A DNA stretch of 48,079 nucleotides from Ruminococcus sp. (lineage in GTDB: Bacteria > Bacillota > Clostridia > Oscillospirales > Ruminococcaceae): NCBI GenBank assembly GCA_015066805.1, contig SVNP01000017.1, positions 1 to 48,079 of the forward strand, given 5' to 3'. The notes under the pieces were generated by a model that was given only the letters and a program-made list of their open reading frames with translations, had not been told where the DNA came from and did no database searches. Positions 975-35,590 of the stretch are shown piece by piece. Every line of letters begins with the position of its first letter. The stretch's first letter is position 1. Position numbers and translations under genes: made by a program.

Positions 975-2060
975 TCATGATTCCTCAGATATAGAAATTC
1001 CCTTTTCTTTTGCCTGCTCAACCAGTTTTCGATAATTCTCGGTATTCGCATTTTTCATACGAGCATAACCACTTAACGACTTGGGCGCAATGTCCGGCAT
1101 TGCTGCAACAATCTGCTCATATTCGATTTTTGTGTTTTCTTTCCTGCGTTTCTCTTTGATGTAATCTTCATAGAATTGGATTTGTTCTTCAGTTCGGTCA
1201 TCAACAAACGGTCTATTGCTAGTTGCAATAATATCCCCTTCAACATATCTTGCTATATCATATTCCTCATGAAATGGATAAACGATGAGACCACAATGCG
1301 CCCCCTTTGATTCACGCAAATAGTCTGGGAATTTGGGAAACCGTTTATCTTTTCCGGATATACTATAGATGCGGCCTTGGTACTTCGCACATTCACCACA
1401 AATTCGATAACTAGTCGTTACCTCTACAAGATCCGTATTCATTTGCTCAGCCCAATGCATTTGTTTTTCAAAGGCTTCTTCTGATGCAGAAGTGTAGGTA
1501 TGAATCTCCGTACTTTCATACACCTGCTTAGCATATGAAACACATTCAGGTGGTAAATTATAAGACAACAATTCTGTGTAAGCAGTAAGTATTTTCCGTT
1601 TCTTTGCATCATCAGTCTTTAACACAGCAGCTTTTTCTAAAGCATCATCGAATACTCGGGCAATCAGAAAATTAACTGTTTCGATGTAATGTTCCATAAT
1701 GTGCTGAAATTGTTCGGAGGGATACGGTTTTTGGAAGACTCCATAAGGCTCGAGTTTGCCGATTTCTGCGGTTATTTGCTCCAACATTTCAAAACGCTGA
1801 AAAAACACTTCCGGATTTTTGGTACTGTTGATCAAGCGTACACAATCTGTAATAATACGAGAACGATCTTCAATGATCAACTGAACAGCAGAACATAACT
1901 TTTCACTTGTTACAACGGCTCTGGTCTCGTTGAGACGAAAAACAATATTTTGCACTTGGATAAAGCGTTCCTTATTCTTGATCTGTTCTTCAAATGGTAC
2001 ATCTTCAAAACTCGTTTCGCAAGAGTTCGATTTTCCAAATAATTTACGGAAGAATCCCAT
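975..2060 (-). CDS. Lysogeny-operon protein with a phage minor-capsid-2-like domain
   Basis: 361 aa. ATG 2060 lies 8 nt after AGGAG and overlaps the end of the repressor gene (TGA 2063-2065), so it is co-transcribed with the repressor and precedes int. The N-terminal 200 residues are helical and unrecognised. The C-terminal third has CGECAKYQGRIYSISGKDK (about 222-240) followed by HCGLIVYPF (about 255-263) and a charged tail (YEDYIKEKRRKE). This is the layout of the phage minor capsid 2 / MuF-type domain, and the head protein at 20847-22715 has the matching CAKDQGKIF...CGHHVYPF. The gene is clearly more AT-rich than the structural genes, a sign of separate origin. Function is not known. A capsid-domain protein made in the lysogen could interfere with head assembly of incoming phage, but that is only inference. 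Confidence 0.75.
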   Translation of the reverse strand: MGFFRKLFGKSNSCETSFEDVPFEEQIKNKERFIQVQNIVFRLNETRAVVTSEKLCSAVQLIIEDRSRIITDCVRLINSTKNPEVFFQRFEMLEQITAEIGKLEPYGVFQKPYPSEQFQHIMEHYIETVNFLIARVFDDALEKAAVLKTDDAKKRKILTAYTELLSYNLPPECVSYAKQVYESTEIHTYTSASEEAFEKQMHWAEQMNTDLVEVTTSYRICGECAKYQGRIYSISGKDKRFPKFPDYLRESKGAHCGLIVYPFHEEYDIARYVEGDIIATSNRPFVDDRTEEQIQFYEDYIKEKRRKENTKIEYEQIVAAMPDIAPKSLSGYARMKNANTENYRKLVEQAKEKGISISEES

Positions 2061-2062
2061 AC

Positions 2063-2827
2063 TCACAACTCCTTTATGACACGCTTCACCTTACCCACGA
2101 CCCTCAGGCGCAGCACATCGGCATCCTCAAACCGCTGCACGGGGTACATAGGATTGATGGAATGCAGCTCGATCCAGGTGGGGCCGTAGATGACCTTTTT
2201 CACCAGGCCTTCTTCTCCATCCAGCAGCACCACGGCGATATCTCCGCTGTCTACGCTGTCCTGCTTGTGCACCTGGATCAGGTCGCCATCTTCGATCTTG
2301 GGGAACATGGAATCCCCCTGTACACGGATGCAGATGGTCTCAGCCGCTTCGTAGTCGCTGACAATGCGCAGGGGGATGAAATCCACCACGCTGTTTTCTG
2401 CCAGTGCGCCAAAGCCGGCGGATACGCTCTCAAATACGGGCACCATGCGGATGTGGTCGTCATATACGGCGGAGATGTTGGAGGGCTCGGCAAGTGTTTG
2501 CTGCTTTGCTGCATTTAGTTTCTTAAGATGTTCAGCAATGATACTATCGCGCAGTCCAGCTGGTATTGGATATCCATTATTATAATCTTTAAGAAACATC
2601 CAATGACAATCCGCACCATCAGGATCATCAGTCAACCCAAGCAAATACTCGGGAGTAGTTTTTAATACTGCCGCAAATTCCATGATTCGTTTTTGGCGAA
2701 TATCTGTTTTTCCTTTTTCAATTTTGTTAATGGAAGATTTGTCTGCATAACCAAGCATCTGTGCCAATACTTCTTGTGTAAGTCCCAATGATTCTCTTCT
2801 GATCTTAATTCGATCACCTAATGTCAT
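2063..2827 (-). CDS. LexA/CI-type phage repressor (HTH-XRE plus S24 peptidase)
   Basis: 254 aa from ATG 2827, chosen because AGGTG lies just upstream and because a classic XRE helix-turn-helix begins at once (LGDRIKIRRESLGLTQEVLA). The C-terminal half is an S24/LexA-type autoprotease: cleavage site Ala137-Gly138 in SVSAGFG, nucleophile Ser173 in QGDSMFP, general base Lys210 in GLVKKVIYG. It should hold the lytic promoter off and be inactivated through RecA during DNA damage. The gene is mosaic: the part for the N-terminus (about 2510-2827) is AT-rich like the operator region, the peptidase part is GC-rich. It heads the minus-strand operon repressor > capsid-domain protein > integrase. An upstream in-frame Met at 2887 overlaps the promoter and is rejected. 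Confidence 0.93.
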   Translation of the reverse strand: MTLGDRIKIRRESLGLTQEVLAQMLGYADKSSINKIEKGKTDIRQKRIMEFAAVLKTTPEYLLGLTDDPDGADCHWMFLKDYNNGYPIPAGLRDSIIAEHLKKLNAAKQQTLAEPSNISAVYDDHIRMVPVFESVSAGFGALAENSVVDFIPLRIVSDYEAAETICIRVQGDSMFPKIEDGDLIQVHKQDSVDSGDIAVVLLDGEEGLVKKVIYGPTWIELHSINPMYPVQRFEDADVLRLRVVGKVKRVIKEL

Positions 2828-2854
2828 AAAAAGCACCTGCCCTTCTTGTTGTTC

Positions 2855-2883
2855 ATTATACCACAATGTTGAACAAATGTCAA
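2855..2883 (-). promoter_or_regulatory. Repressor promoter (sigma-A type)
   Basis: On the minus strand TTGACA (2878-2883) and TATAAT (2855-2860) are separated by 17 bp: a full consensus promoter reading into the repressor. Operator O1 (2868-2884) covers the -35 and the spacer, so the repressor can control its own synthesis. Confidence 0.9.
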
Positions 2884-2884
2884 C
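2868..2884. promoter_or_regulatory. Operator O1
   Basis: GTTGAACAAATGTCAAC, a 17-bp imperfect palindrome of the type GTTGA(A/C)-N5-TTCAAC (read on the minus strand). It overlaps the -35 of the repressor promoter. Confidence 0.75.
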
Positions 2885-2908
2885 CATTATTTTTGGTAGT
2901 TTTGTCAG

Positions 2909-19433: not shown

Positions 19434-20878
19434 ATCTTTCGGCCATACAAGCGGCCTTTCCGCAGGATCCCATCCCCGATGTATCCGCTTATTACAGTGA
19501 ACGGATCAGACTGTGGCGTGATATCTTTGAAAACAATCCCCCCTGGCTGAAGGTCAAGCGTGGCGGTCTGTACAAAAAGGGTGACAGGAGCCGATATACC
19601 CTCAGCACTGCCAAGGTGCTGTGTGATCACTTTTCTGCACTCACCTTTTCGGAGCAGTGCAGCATCACTGTCAGCAATGAGCAATATCAAAGCTACATTG
19701 ATCAGCAGTTGGATCGCAACGGCTTCTGGGACAATATGCCCCTGCTTCTGACCGATGCCTATGCTCTGGGAGGTGGTGTGGTCAAGGTATATGCAGACCA
19801 AAAGCAGCCGCAGCTCAGCTACATCCATGCAGAACAGTTTCTCCCCACCGGCTGGGACTCCAAGACAGTCCTGGCCGGTGATTTTGTATCCACAACCCGC
19901 AGCAAGGAGTATTATTACACCCTTGTGGAACGGCATCAGCGGGGCAGGATCACCCACAAGCTGTTTCAGGCACGCTCCAACGGAGAAGTGGGCACGCCTT
20001 GTCCGCTGAGCACCCTGTATGCGTTCCCCGAGCAGACGGATTATCAGACGGATACCCCCATGTTTGCCTATTTCAAGCCCTGTGTCTCCAACAATGCAGA
20101 GTATGACACACCGCTGGGCATGAGCATCTATGCCAATGCTCTTTCCACGCTGGAGGCACTGGATATTGCATTTGACAGCTTTGTGCGGGAGTTTCTTCTC
20201 GGTAAAAAGCGGATCATCGTGCCGGCATCTGCCATCCAGACGGTAGTGGACCCCACTTCCGGAGAACTGGTACGGTATTTTGATGCCGATGATGAAGCGT
20301 TTGTAGCGCTGAAAGCAGACGACACCAAGGAAATGAAGATCACAGACAACACCATTACTCTGCGAATCGAGGAGCACGTTGCAGGCATCAATGCGCTGCT
20401 GAATATCCTCTGTTTTCAGGTGGGACTTTCGCCCGGCTCCCTCTCTTTTGATGCGGTACAGGGGCTGAAAACGGCTACGGAGATCATCTCCCAGGACAGC
20501 AAGACCGCACGCACGGTCAAATCCAATAAAAACCTGCTGACAGAGACCATTGAAACGATCATTCATGCGCTAATCGCCGTGGGTGTCTTTCTGAAGCTGA
20601 TCCCCCAAGCCGAATACACCGTGACGGTAGGCTGGCAGGACAACATCGTCATTGATGACAACACCCTCATTGATAACAACATCAAGCTGGTGGATGCAGG
20701 TCTGAAATCCAAGGTAAAGGCCATAATGGATGTGCAGAAGTGCGATGAAGCCGAAGCACTGGCAGAGCTGGAACGTATCGCCAAGGAGCAATCGGTCGGC
20801 GGTCTTGCGGTAGATGATTTTCTGAGCAGCAGAAAGGGCGAAGGCGATGACACCTCTGGAACTGATGCAGTGGAGTGA
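19430..20878 (+). CDS. Portal protein (SPP1 gp6-like)
   Basis: 482 aa. The N-terminus (YYSERIRLWRDIFENNPPWLK), the central YALGGGVVKVYAD and ALDIAFDSFVREF, and the late GLSPGSLSFDAVQGLKTATEIISQDSKTARTV are typical of SPP1-type portal proteins. It forms the dodecameric ring for DNA entry and docks TerL. The last 32 nt overlap the MuF gene, the usual coupling of portal and MuF. Confidence 0.94.
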   Translation: MNLSAIQAAFPQDPIPDVSAYYSERIRLWRDIFENNPPWLKVKRGGLYKKGDRSRYTLSTAKVLCDHFSALTFSEQCSITVSNEQYQSYIDQQLDRNGFWDNMPLLLTDAYALGGGVVKVYADQKQPQLSYIHAEQFLPTGWDSKTVLAGDFVSTTRSKEYYYTLVERHQRGRITHKLFQARSNGEVGTPCPLSTLYAFPEQTDYQTDTPMFAYFKPCVSNNAEYDTPLGMSIYANALSTLEALDIAFDSFVREFLLGKKRIIVPASAIQTVVDPTSGELVRYFDADDEAFVALKADDTKEMKITDNTITLRIEEHVAGINALLNILCFQVGLSPGSLSFDAVQGLKTATEIISQDSKTARTVKSNKNLLTETIETIIHALIAVGVFLKLIPQAEYTVTVGWQDNIVIDDNTLIDNNIKLVDAGLKSKVKAIMDVQKCDEAEALAELERIAKEQSVGGLAVDDFLSSRKGEGDDTSGTDAVE

Positions 20879-22715
20879 GGGCCTTGCCGATCTCTACACG
20901 GGATTGGAAACAGACCTCATCGCCAATATTGCGGCATATCTGGCAAAGGGCAGCGCAGACAGCAGCACGGCACAATGGAAGCTGCAGATGCTTGCACAGA
21001 TGGGTGCGCTCAACCGGCAGAACCTGCAGACCATTCTCTCCTATTCGGATATCATCACGGAAGAAATGCAGGCTGCTCTGGAAACTGCGGCTCTGGCAGC
21101 CATAGAGGAGCTGGAGCCGGGCTTCCGGCAGCTTGCCCGTGAAGGCTTCATCAATGATACCGACATTCCCGTAGATGTGACCACCGCAGCAGTCCTGAAA
21201 GCCTATCGCAAACAGGCACAGGATGCGCTGAATATGGTGAATACAGTAATGCAGTACAAGGCAAAGGCGGCTGCCCGCAGGCTCATCAACGATACCGCAG
21301 AGCTTGCTGATAAACCTGAGTTCCTTGCTATGCTGAACAAAGCAGCAGGCTCCATGGTAACGGGTGGGGAAAGCCGTCAGGCAGCATTGCGGCGCTGTAT
21401 TCATCAGATGACGGAAAAAGGCATTCCCGCCTTTGTGGATAAGCTGGGCAGAGAGTGGACTCCCGAAGCGTATATCAACATGGATCTGCGTACTACCATG
21501 TCCAACGTGGCACATCAGGTACAGTTTGACCGCATGGACGCTTACGATCTTACCTTGCTGGAGGTCAGCAGCCATGCCGGAGCCCGCCCTAAGTGTGCCA
21601 AGGATCAGGGCAAGATCTTCAACCGCAACGGCAGCGGCGGCTATACCACCGATCTCCACGGCAGGAAGATCCGCTATTATGCCTGGAAGGACAGCTCCTA
21701 CGGTGAGCCGGATGGGCTGCTTGGTATCAACTGCGGGCATCATGTCTATCCGTTCACACCCGGTATTGATGTGCAGCGGTATTTCCCCTATGACGAAAAG
21801 GAAAATGATGCGCTGTATCAGAAGATGCAGCATCAGCGGGAGCTGGAACGCCGTGTGAGACGCTCCAAACGGGAATGCATGATGCTGGAGACTACCGGTG
21901 ATACCGAGGGCTTTGCAAAGGCATCTGTTACGCTGAAACAGCGGGAGCAGGCTTTGAAGCAGTATTGCGCCGATGAGGGACTTGACTATAAAAACGACCG
22001 CACCGCCGTGGTGGGCTATGGCAGAAGCACCGCTGCAAAGGCCTCTGCTGCTGCCAAGCGAAAACTTGCCGAACAGACCCGAAAACGCCTTGACAAATCT
22101 GCGGAAAGTGGTATAATGGAGTCAAGGGACAAAAAAGCAGGCGGTCTTTCTGCACCAATCGTACCTTCAAAGGTTGATACCACAAAGCGCATTGGTAGTG
22201 ATACTTTTAGTGAAGAAGCACGCACTGAGCTGTTTCGTGATGAGCGTATCATCTCAGGCAATGCATATGAGACTGCATCTCTGTATAATGCGAACGGTGA
22301 GAAGATATTCCGAAAAAAAGGAACCCAAGACTCGGTGACATTCACTGCCAAAGAAATGAAGTTGATGCATGGCGGTATATTGACTCACAATCATCCCAAC
22401 GGTTCAGTTTTTTCAGCAGAAGACATCAATATGCTTCGGCGAGGAAAGCTCGCGGAGATTCGTGCTTGTAACCGTCTTGGCACTTATGTGCTACAAACGC
22501 CCGGTGCATGGCCAAAGGAACTTTCCAGTCTTGAAGATATACGTTCCGCCTATGATCGCATCATGGCCGAAGCAGGCGAAAAGTATAAAGACATTGCAGC
22601 ACAGGAAGGTAGGAGCATTCTTTACTATCTCGATAGAATGGATGAGGATGCCATGGATATGTTTAGTAAGGAATTTGGCCTAATATTCAGATGGGAGGCA
22701 GCTGATAATGATTAG
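20847..22715 (+). CDS. MuF-type minor head protein fused to a JAB-like (HNHPNG) C-terminal domain
   Basis: 622 aa. Residues 1-340 are a phage minor capsid 2 / MuF-type head protein, with helical N-terminus and CAKDQGKIF (about 250) to CGHHVYPF (about 297). A basic helical linker follows (about 340-415). From about 420 composition turns AT-richer and a new domain begins: TFSEEARTELF...THNHPNGSVFSAED, with H514, H516, P517, G519, S523 and D526. That is close to the JAMM/RadC motif HxHPxG-x(n)-S-x2-D. Its end is acidic. Phage MuF proteins often carry toxin or enzyme domains at this position and deliver them with the virion. A peptidase-like or toxin role is inferred; an upstream catalytic Glu could not be assigned with certainty. 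A promoter lies inside the linker (22090-22117). Confidence 0.85.
   Translation: MTPLELMQWSEGLADLYTGLETDLIANIAAYLAKGSADSSTAQWKLQMLAQMGALNRQNLQTILSYSDIITEEMQAALETAALAAIEELEPGFRQLAREGFINDTDIPVDVTTAAVLKAYRKQAQDALNMVNTVMQYKAKAAARRLINDTAELADKPEFLAMLNKAAGSMVTGGESRQAALRRCIHQMTEKGIPAFVDKLGREWTPEAYINMDLRTTMSNVAHQVQFDRMDAYDLTLLEVSSHAGARPKCAKDQGKIFNRNGSGGYTTDLHGRKIRYYAWKDSSYGEPDGLLGINCGHHVYPFTPGIDVQRYFPYDEKENDALYQKMQHQRELERRVRRSKRECMMLETTGDTEGFAKASVTLKQREQALKQYCADEGLDYKNDRTAVVGYGRSTAAKASAAAKRKLAEQTRKRLDKSAESGIMESRDKKAGGLSAPIVPSKVDTTKRIGSDTFSEEARTELFRDERIISGNAYETASLYNANGEKIFRKKGTQDSVTFTAKEMKLMHGGILTHNHPNGSVFSAEDINMLRRGKLAEIRACNRLGTYVLQTPGAWPKELSSLEDIRSAYDRIMAEAGEKYKDIAAQEGRSILYYLDRMDEDAMDMFSKEFGLIFRWEAADND
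22090..22117 (+). promoter_or_regulatory. Internal promoter at the MuF/accessory-domain junction
   Basis: TTGACA (22090-22095), 16-bp spacer, TATAAT (22112-22117): both hexamers are perfect consensus although they lie in coding sequence (codons 415-424). Transcripts would start near 22124 and run over the HNHPNG domain and the small gene to the terminator at 22890-22917. Confidence 0.6.
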
Positions 22716-22899
22716 TATTTCGGATGTTTCGGATGAGAGAGACTTTAGTGATTATCCTGAGAATACTGAGTTTATTCACAGTGAACAATTTCCTCGTTAT
22801 CTGCTCAATCCTTTCGAAATCATTTTCCCTTCTGACCCTAGATATGCTGATGCATTAACACGAGAAGAATTAACTGCAAAGCAGTCAAAAACCGTCTGA
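22708..22899 (+). CDS. Small acidic protein, candidate immunity or partner of the MuF domain
   Basis: 63 aa, ATG 8 nt inside the end of the MuF gene, behind GGGAGG. The sequence is strongly acidic at the N-terminus ([19 protein letters not shown]), then [19 protein letters not shown]. No family recognised. The position directly after a MuF-linked accessory domain, the overlap, the low charge and the terminator folded over its stop codon fit a cognate immunity protein. That is inference from layout only. Confidence 0.7.
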
Positions 22900-22917
22900 A
22901 TAATCAGGCGGTTTTTT
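22890..22917 (+). terminator. Intrinsic terminator after the MuF accessory cassette
   Basis: AACCGTCTGA (22890-22899) pairs with TCAGGCGGTT (22904-22913) with one G-U, followed by a T-run to 22917. The stop codon of the small gene is part of the stem. It lies in the middle of the late operon, so late transcription must read through or be antiterminated. Confidence 0.85.
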
Positions 22918-22927
22918 CATACCCAAA
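22912..22927 (+). repeat. Direct repeat, left copy (flanks the Tad1-like cassette)
   Basis: TTTTTTCATACCCAAA, identical to 23352-23367. Starts inside the T-run of the upstream terminator. Confidence 0.8.
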
Positions 22928-22949: not shown

Positions 22950-23321
22950 ATGAGAGAACTGAGCACCATCCAGAAGCGAGAGAAGCTGAACCGTGTATTT
23001 GCCGCTGATGATACCGGCTCCGGCAATGCGAACCATGCGTATGACATCTACCCTGCCGAAGGCTTTGACGAAAACACGGAACCGCTTCTTTGCATCCAAT
23101 TCCAGCACGGTCCACGCAAAGAAGCAGCCAGTACACACGGCGTTCTTGACACAGACCTTTTGGAGATCGTTCGTGACCGTCTGCGAGGTTTCCAAAGCGG
23201 TTCTTTCGCTTGCCGTGAGAATGCCTGCGCATTAACTCACATCGAAGAAGCGCTGATGTGGATGAATCGGCGTGTTGAAGATCGCATTGAACGCAATGTG
23301 CTTGGCACAGAGCAGAAATAA
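22950..23321 (+). CDS. tad1: Tad1/Acb2-like cyclic-nucleotide sponge (anti-Thoeris / anti-CBASS)
   Basis: 123 aa, ATG behind GTGAGG. The core [15 protein letters not shown]...[51 protein letters not shown] matches the phage family I know as Tad1 (in the Acb2/Tad1 group). These proteins bind the signal molecules of Thoeris (cyclic ADP-ribose isomers), and relatives also bind CBASS cyclic oligonucleotides. Family hallmarks present are the FQxGPxKE loop, FQxGxFACREN and the ALTxxEEALxW helix with trailing arginines. The first 45 residues are variable. It would protect the phage or the lysogen against these systems. It sits alone between two terminators in the head operon; no own promoter is obvious in the 30-bp gap. 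Confidence 0.78.
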
Positions 23322-23332
23322 ATACGGAATCT

Positions 23333-23357
23333 AGCATCTCGAAAGAGGTGCTTTTTT
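23333..23357 (+). terminator. Intrinsic terminator after the Tad1-like gene
   Basis: AGCATCTC (23333-23340), GAAA loop, GAGGTGCT (23345-23352), then six T. Second terminator within 470 bp of the late operon. Confidence 0.88.
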
Positions 23358-35561: not shown

Positions 35562-35590
35562 ATTATAGCACAAGTGATTCCGTTTGTCAA
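35562..35590 (-). promoter_or_regulatory. tRNA operon promoter
   Basis: TTGACA (35585-35590), 17-bp spacer, TATAAT (35562-35567) on the minus strand. The preceding GTGCTTGACAAACGG differs by one base from 98-112 on the plus strand at the left prophage end. Confidence 0.9.

Follow-up and report, generated by a model that had tools for sequence, protein, structure and literature searches.

A promoter-like element in the linker between a phage head protein and its putative toxin domain

How is a lysogen protected from a toxin that is encoded in its own silent late operon? The question is raised by a fused minor head protein gene in contig SVNP01000017.1 of Ruminococcus sp. (GenBank assembly GCA_015066805.1), all 48 079 nucleotides (nt) of which were analysed and are referred to here as the window. 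The contig looks, from its genes, like an integrated temperate prophage, so what a lysogen expresses is a real question here. It carries genes for an S24-type repressor (2063–2887, minus strand), an AntA/KilAC antirepressor, terminase, portal, scaffold, major head, tail and amidase, and the phage genes are followed by two tRNA genes and then by bacterial metabolic genes. The fused gene (20847–22715, plus strand) encodes 622 amino acids (aa), of which residues 1–375 match PF06152, Phage_min_cap2 (Pfam E value 4.5e-92), and the protein matches PHROG 581, minor head protein (E 2.4e-106). We consider it likely that the C-terminal part and the small gene behind it are a phage polymorphic toxin cassette, in which the linker to the head domain also acts, in the lysogen, as a constitutive promoter of the immunity gene.

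The linker element and the cassette behind it

The element lies at 22090–22117 (plus strand) and consists of TTGACA (22090–22095), a 16 nt spacer and TATAAT (22112–22117), which match the promoter consensus at 12 of 12 positions, with a TG at 22109–22110 that makes it an extended −10 promoter. It occupies the codons of residues 415–424 (peptide LDKSAESGIM), after the PF06152 match and ahead of the conserved core of the C-terminal domain, and the predicted transcription start is at approximately 22124. The original prediction had placed two perfect hexamers, 16 nt apart, where the accessory domain begins; both the sequence and its position in the linker were confirmed, and the TG, which was not mentioned there, is added here. 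Only 0.012 sites with 12/12 matches and a 16–18 nt spacer are expected in the window (both strands), and three were seen. The other two are at 2883 (minus strand), where the site overlaps the longest repressor frame at its 5′ end, and at 35590 (minus strand), immediately upstream of tRNA-Leu; perfect sites in the window therefore occupy positions expected of real promoters. Chance as the source of the linker site was ruled out by this expectation together with the test in relatives described below.

The G+C content at third codon positions (GC3) drops in the linker (22047–22136), and the DNA homology to phage MT835475 stops at 22133. In 150 nt steps, GC3 is 0.50–0.78 upstream, 0.36 at 22047 and 0.32–0.44 thereafter, and by part it amounts to 0.62 (head), 0.39 (C-terminal), 0.28 (small gene) and 0.52 (following gene). 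As this step falls at the linker, the C-terminal end and the small gene look like an acquired cassette, and they share with phage morons a base composition foreign to their surroundings (0.39 and 0.28 versus 0.62 in the head part).

The small gene (22708–22899, plus strand) encodes a putative immunity protein of 63 aa. Its start overlaps the end of the fused gene, stop codon included, by 8 nt, and its ribosome-binding site, GGGAGG (22693–22698), stands 9 nt ahead of the ATG. As had been predicted, an intrinsic terminator follows (22887–22916, plus strand), with a 13 bp stem, a T run at the 3′ end and the stop codon of the small gene, TGA (22897–22899), closing the 5′ arm. The 60 nt around it (22866–22925) fold with −21.5 kcal/mol (z −6.6). 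A promoter and a terminator of its own, another property of morons, are thus present as judged by sequence and conservation.

No in-frame start with a Shine-Dalgarno-like sequence was found in the window between the promoter and the last 30 codons of the fused gene, so a transcript made in the lysogen should yield the small protein only. This bears on the possibility that the promoter also gives rise to a free toxin fragment, which would make the locus a resident toxin–antitoxin module, as in Salmonella Rhs loci, where internal promoters are reported to give toxic proteins (PMC7043789, accessible part). Weak in-frame start candidates do occur in 9 of 22 other loci, e.g. L049, L052 and L068, but the remaining 13, like the window, have none, and we regard a free toxin fragment as quite unlikely.

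Conservation of the element in relatives

Copies of the window in IMG/VR (L002–L005) are 100 % identical to it over their length and are therefore useless as an independent test. Homologues of the C-terminal domain, 16 genes including those of the window and L049, gave p <0.05 in codon shuffles only for the window (0.020) and L038 (0.045), and the test was moved to head-domain homologues. Among the annotated phages of the collection, the nearest one that differs from the window is MT835475. It is 58.6 % identical in the head part and has another C-terminal domain and small gene, yet it shares the extended promoter in an identical frame, and the DNA homology with the window stops just behind this promoter. 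A perfect element in the same codon register was found in seven further loci (L049, L052, L062, L063, L065, L066 and L068), with head domains that are 43–64 % identical and with C-termini and small genes that are mostly different. L067 has a near-perfect TTGACT-17-TGGTACAAT in another register and peptide. In L061 the element is decayed and a perfect promoter is found instead 125 nt before the end of the toxin gene. L058, a head protein without an extension and with a longer gene behind it, has no promoter element.

Relatives were also drawn from 394 genomes of the order, 22 of which had a match, the window's own genome included. Loci were excluded before counting if they were identical to L052 over the gene (L053, L054 and L057), the same as L058 (L059) or copies of the window, if the contig end, N or a broken frame intervened (L055, L056, L060 and L064), or if the match was weak (L048). 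In the 38 loci retained, 32 of them toxin-bearing (extension of at least 60 aa), the 210 nt stretch behind head-profile position 398 was scored, a score of at least 13 being a strong site. Such a site is present in 22 of the 32 toxin-bearing loci, where 4.7 are expected from synonymous shuffles, and none of 177 control stretches in head parts reached 13. Grouping by identity gave 15 of 20 promoter-positive clusters at 70 %, 13 of 18 at 60 % and 19 of 27 at 80 %, with a cluster positive if any member was positive and with L091 counted as a match. Individually, 16 of the 22 positive loci have a shuffle p below 0.05 (0.013 for the window). Conservation of the hexamers beyond codon constraint, the check proposed with the original prediction, was therefore found.

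The hexamers could still be a by-product of the linker peptide, [VL]DKSxxSGII, if this were kept for protein reasons, for example as a flexible or cleavable linker, and had no transcriptional role. The peptide is common to many cases and does raise the odds, since it is the peptides alone that predict the 4.7 loci of 32. However, across 15 representatives picked for carrying the form with a 16 nt spacer, conservation is 0.95 in the elements, 0.60 in the spacer and 0.47 in the flanks, and at third codon positions it is 1.0, 0.73, 1.0, 1.0 and 1.0 in the elements, 0.33–0.67 in the spacer and on average 0.45 in the flanks. Further, the promoter is in another register and in other peptides in L067 and L088, and L077, L085 and L047 alter the −35 and the peptide yet retain TGGTATAAT. 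The toxin-less loci L058, L073, L086 and L087 have no promoter, whereas L047 retains one after loss of the toxin. The chance of the promoter codons given the peptide ranges from about 0.09 to 0.0007 per locus in 23 promoter-bearing loci, and as these were chosen for having the promoter, this shows only that the peptide does not force the site. We consider a peptide by-product unlikely, though the most credible of the alternatives; on the comparisons above, the promoter is neither chance nor explained by protein constraint alone.

A second alternative is a secondary late promoter that would serve the downstream capsid genes through a leaky terminator and would not be meant for the small gene. 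The scaffold and major capsid genes do come after the cassette, and additional promoters in late operons are possible on general knowledge. Against this, a strong terminator lies in between, and the terminator scan listed 21 of the 38 loci as having a terminator-like site after the small or the head gene. In addition, four of the six extension-less relatives have no site though they presumably express capsid genes; the other two are L084, with a site after a short head protein, and L047, with a site before the scored stretch. A late promoter for the capsid genes is very unlikely. Alternatively, the conserved stretch could be mainly a recombination anchor for cassette swaps, its likeness to a promoter being secondary. 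This would fit the window and MT835475, whose DNA homology breaks off directly behind the promoter, with different cassettes past it. However, conservation is centred on the two hexamers and the TG while the spacer has diverged, which would make a poor homology arm, and spacers of both 16 and 17 nt are found. An anchor role is likewise very unlikely, the least credible of the alternatives.

Several results weigh against a promoter for the immunity gene and need to be set beside the 22 positive loci. The cut-off of 13 and the 210 nt stretch were set after a first look at the data. In six of the positive loci (L049, L065, L077, L080, L089 and L094) p is 0.053–0.392, because the linker peptide itself favours a promoter. 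The sites of L083, L094 and L095 are doubtful, since the conserved peptide in which they lie may determine the codon choice; leaving these three out gives, by subtraction, 19 positive loci of 29. Ten of the 32 toxin-bearing loci (L061, L072, L074, L075, L078, L079, L090, L091, L092 and L093) lack a strong site, and of these only L091, with a perfect site just ahead of the scored stretch, and L061 have one elsewhere. Among nine relatives from Streptococcus, Listeria, Bacillus and the Lactobacillus group, seven have no extension. The toxin-bearing Streptococcus phage Javan206 has no site of at least 13, and Javan554 has one of 13.9 in a conserved peptide but a stronger one of 14.8 in the head part. 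The sites of pneumococcal phage V22 (13.8, p 0.28) and Streptococcus suis phage phiS10 (13.9, p 0.14) are not significant, and by these scores the Streptococcus relatives offer no clear case. Finally, the unit was predicted to be self-contained. Its promoter and terminator are present, but the terminator is not exclusive to the small gene, as one is found at this position in the toxin-less L087. Toxin-less L073, which the terminator scan did not list, has by eye a weaker hairpin with a T run.

The element is also found on other virion proteins. For Phage_Mu_F (PF04233), 30 of 62 places were examined, of which 22 have an extension, six are short and two are ended by the contig. A site of at least 13 is in the extension of 17 of the 22 extended genes (6.5 expected) and in the head part of two, and two loci have the same element, namely L126 (VDKSAESGIIK) and L131 (LDKSAESDIIK). 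When viral contigs were scanned at the DNA level for the element, at least 120 stretches were returned, and examination of 120 of them gave at least 123 matches. Having been picked by the DNA pattern itself, these loci show spread, not conservation. Among the matches listed, 68 are preceded by an open frame of at least 120 codons, and of these 36 have at least 60 residues behind the element, 26 are in one unrelated conserved phage protein (..DKxxASDII..), five are in another and one is in none of these. The 26 are a point in favour of a peptide origin of the pattern. The ten scanned of the 36 are all virion proteins, three with PF06152, three with PF04233 and four with the portal family PF04860. 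L150 and L154 each have two copies of the element. The isolated phage Castelnaud has a portal protein without an extension, so the search turned up no ready laboratory model.

A second, KTxDxxxxxKYN-like junction peptide encodes TTGxxx-17-AAGTATAAT in L083, L094, L095, L098, L105, L111, L116, L118 and L276. The peptide is conserved, and its ..KYN end (codons AAG TAT AAT) uses TAT in all nine parsed of 13 loci. It could be a parallel promoter or merely a conserved peptide.

Toxin domains, small genes and an RNA in the same slot

The C-terminal domain of the window (22242–22712, plus strand) was characterised from an alignment of 22 members and with hhalign. Ten residues are invariant in the alignment (E36, E45, T83–P87, S93, D96 and R109), and these include E45, H84, H86, S93 and D96, the E, HxH, S, D pattern of a JAB/JAMM metal site. 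Relatives from a Dorea phage, an Aphanizomenon phage, a faecal phage contig and IMG/VR have the pattern E, HNHP, S, D in common. Curated-model scans placed the window domain in no Pfam or NCBIfam family, and among the 22 members two matched such a model weakly, one RadC (E 0.057) and the other DUF4329 (E 0.018). In hhalign, profile comparison against a single RadC protein gave a probability of 84 % over 65 columns. We take the domain as a JAB-like putative toxin, for which a peptidase and a nuclease would suit the sequence alike. The pattern is shared with RadC-type JAB proteins and with Tox-JAB-1 and Tox-JAB-2, which have been suggested to act as nucleases (Zhang 2012, PMC3482391, accessible part); the window domain differs from these in having no Pfam family and in a variable-length insert between HNHP and S.

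Different C-terminal domains occupy the same slot on the same chassis. Curated toxin domains found there are Ntox50 (L062, L071 and L089), PBECR2 (L065) and Tox-MPTase4 (L068), and below the cut-off Tox-MPTase3 (L061) and an ART domain (L081) are at the same junction. Counting against a toxin role, a curated toxin model scored above the cut-off in only five of the 30 C-terminal regions scanned, the two named above fell below it and the other 23 had no model match at E 0.01, and for the JAB-like domain a convincing solved relative was not found by sequence.

The small genes keep company with particular C-terminal domains. In L052 the small gene is 53 % identical to that of the window over 60 aa and stands next to a C-terminal domain that is 57 % identical, and in L090, with a domain of the window's type (50 % to the window), the small gene is like that of L052 over 23 residues. 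When 32 small genes were compared, 13 pairs from toxin-bearing loci matched (E ≤0.01), and in 13 of 13 the C-terminal domains match as well. The paired groups L062/L071/L089, L066/L081 and L070/L076/L088 span different head clusters, and several matches cross clusters, including window/L052/L090, so toxin and small gene travel together. By these pairings the small gene appears to behave as the cognate partner of the C-terminal domain. In L047, where the toxin is reduced to a 17-residue stub, the promoter is kept and the small gene matches those of L072, L074 and L075, which looks like an antidote retained for its own sake. As a separate observation, inspection by eye showed a C..C ... C...[FY]P pattern in small proteins that stand behind different toxin domains in L013, L014, L015, L024, L085, L154 and L268.

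Behind the PBECR2 toxin of L065 no small open reading frame (ORF) was found and a skipping-rope RNA (RF02924, E 1.9e-9) is present instead (L065:4470–4568), as it is in L178, which has the same toxin type (L178:4843–4939). Skipping-rope RNA is present in 42 of 341 genomes of the class. In 14 of 20 loci listed, a frame matching a PBECR2 profile ends 18–86 nt upstream of the RNA; the profile was built from two proteins, and the matches, several of them weak, have E values of 7e-3 or better within each small locus. L271 was added by reading the sequence, making 15 of 20 loci, besides L065 and L178, with the RNA just downstream of a PBECR2-like RNase gene (L255–L265, L267 and L271–L273). The other five (L266, L268, L269, L270 and L274) have no intact PBECR2-like gene, and in one of them, L268, the last codons of the gene, the promoter and the RNA are kept. 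A promoter-like site of at least 13 lies around the gene end or between gene and RNA in 14 of the 15, the value for L259 being 9.8. The arrangement fits skipping-rope RNA as a candidate RNA antidote to PBECR2-like RNases, and the association points to a function for this RNA. The word PBECR was in none of the papers listed by a literature search for this observation, and the one open paper found to name skipping-rope RNA gives it only in a listing among phage RNAs.

With three unrelated virion families (PF06152, PF04233 and PF04860) and many cassettes involved, we lean towards the view that the element, protein linker and constitutive sigma-A promoter in one, is a universal adaptor for phage-delivered toxins of Firmicutes, by which expression of the antidote, either a protein or, for PBECR2 RNases, skipping-rope RNA, would be guaranteed in the lysogen as soon as a cassette is acquired.

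Proposed function and known systems

From the anatomy, conservation, cassette exchange, pairing and orphan antidotes seen here, we infer promoter activity, toxicity, neutralisation and delivery as follows. The minor head protein of the temperate phage would bear a polymorphic toxin–immunity cassette at its C-terminus. In the lytic cycle, a late promoter would give the whole fused protein and the small protein, both from the late operon, and the fused protein would be packaged and delivered with the DNA, as described for such proteins in the accessible parts of PMC5512222 and PMC5576092. In the lysogen, with the late operon silent, the extended sigma-A promoter in the linker codons would initiate at approximately 22124. 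The transcript would cross the toxin-domain DNA, which has no internal toxin start, and would stop at the terminator behind the small gene, only the 63 aa protein being translated, from its own ribosome-binding site. The lysogen would then always hold the antidote to toxin that is brought in by sister phages or produced at a low level. With promoter and linker united in a single element where the swap occurs, an incoming toxin–immunity pair could be fused in frame and its antidote expressed at once, which would explain cassette swaps that do not kill the new owner. The original prediction of a unit transcribed in the lysogen is supported as a reading by the promoter conservation, the prophage genes and the pairing. 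Its suggestion that the small gene confers immunity is likewise favoured, by the 13 of 13 pairings and by promoter and immunity element kept after toxin loss in L047 and L268. A conserved, locatable promoter makes protection of the lysogen directly testable and provides a sequence signature for finding new toxin–immunity pairs.

The locus resembles the MuF polymorphic toxins of temperate Firmicutes phages (Jamet 2017, PMC5576092), for which the accessible text reports a small ORF behind 89.4 % of 191 toxin genes. As in these, the N-terminus is a phage head domain of MuF type (here PF06152), the C-terminal domain is variable and exchanged on the same chassis, a small ORF follows directly (63 aa, 8 nt overlap) and the phage is temperate (repressor, antirepressor and bacterial genes at one end). 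It differs in the conserved promoter within its linker and in that portal proteins serve as some of the chassis; the word 'promoter' was not found in the main text of PMC5576092. A promoter inside a toxin gene is, as a principle, already known from type VI secretion system (T6SS) and Rhs loci, the comparisons that follow being with the accessible parts of the sources. In the Vibrio cholerae T6SS, internal promoters for the immunity genes tsiV1–3, supported by reporters and killing assays, keep immunity on while the operon is silent (Miyata 2013, PMC3857813), whereas here a phage particle is involved, and there the exact promoter was still being sought and the linker element was not met. In Salmonella, Rhs P2 is inside rhs near a conserved PxxxDPxGL motif and beside different toxins, as here, but it is reported to drive toxin and immunity together as a toxin–antitoxin module (PMC7043789), while the window has no toxin start. 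As with prophage moron or accessory loci (PMC7067206), where an accessory gene is expressed in lysogeny, in one case from its own promoter, such expression is predicted here, but from a promoter inside the coding sequence of a virion gene. A literature search that covered few subscription papers found no report of a linker-embedded immunity promoter in phage head toxins.

Two neighbourhoods in the window deserve mention. A gene at 975–2066 (minus strand), directly behind the repressor gene (2063–2887) and co-directional with it, encodes a 363 aa protein with a PF06152 core (residues 192–276, E 1.2e-6), and this head-protein relative is probably expressed in the lysogen. The gene right after the cassette (22950–23321) matches the Acb2/Tad1 hairpin domain PF24729 (E 3.7e-8) and has a terminator-like site at 23333–23352. 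As Tad2-like (PF11195) genes are nearby downstream in two other cassette-bearing phages (L061:6267–6665 and L007:6719–7213), the spot downstream of the cassette may be a slot for anti-defence genes.

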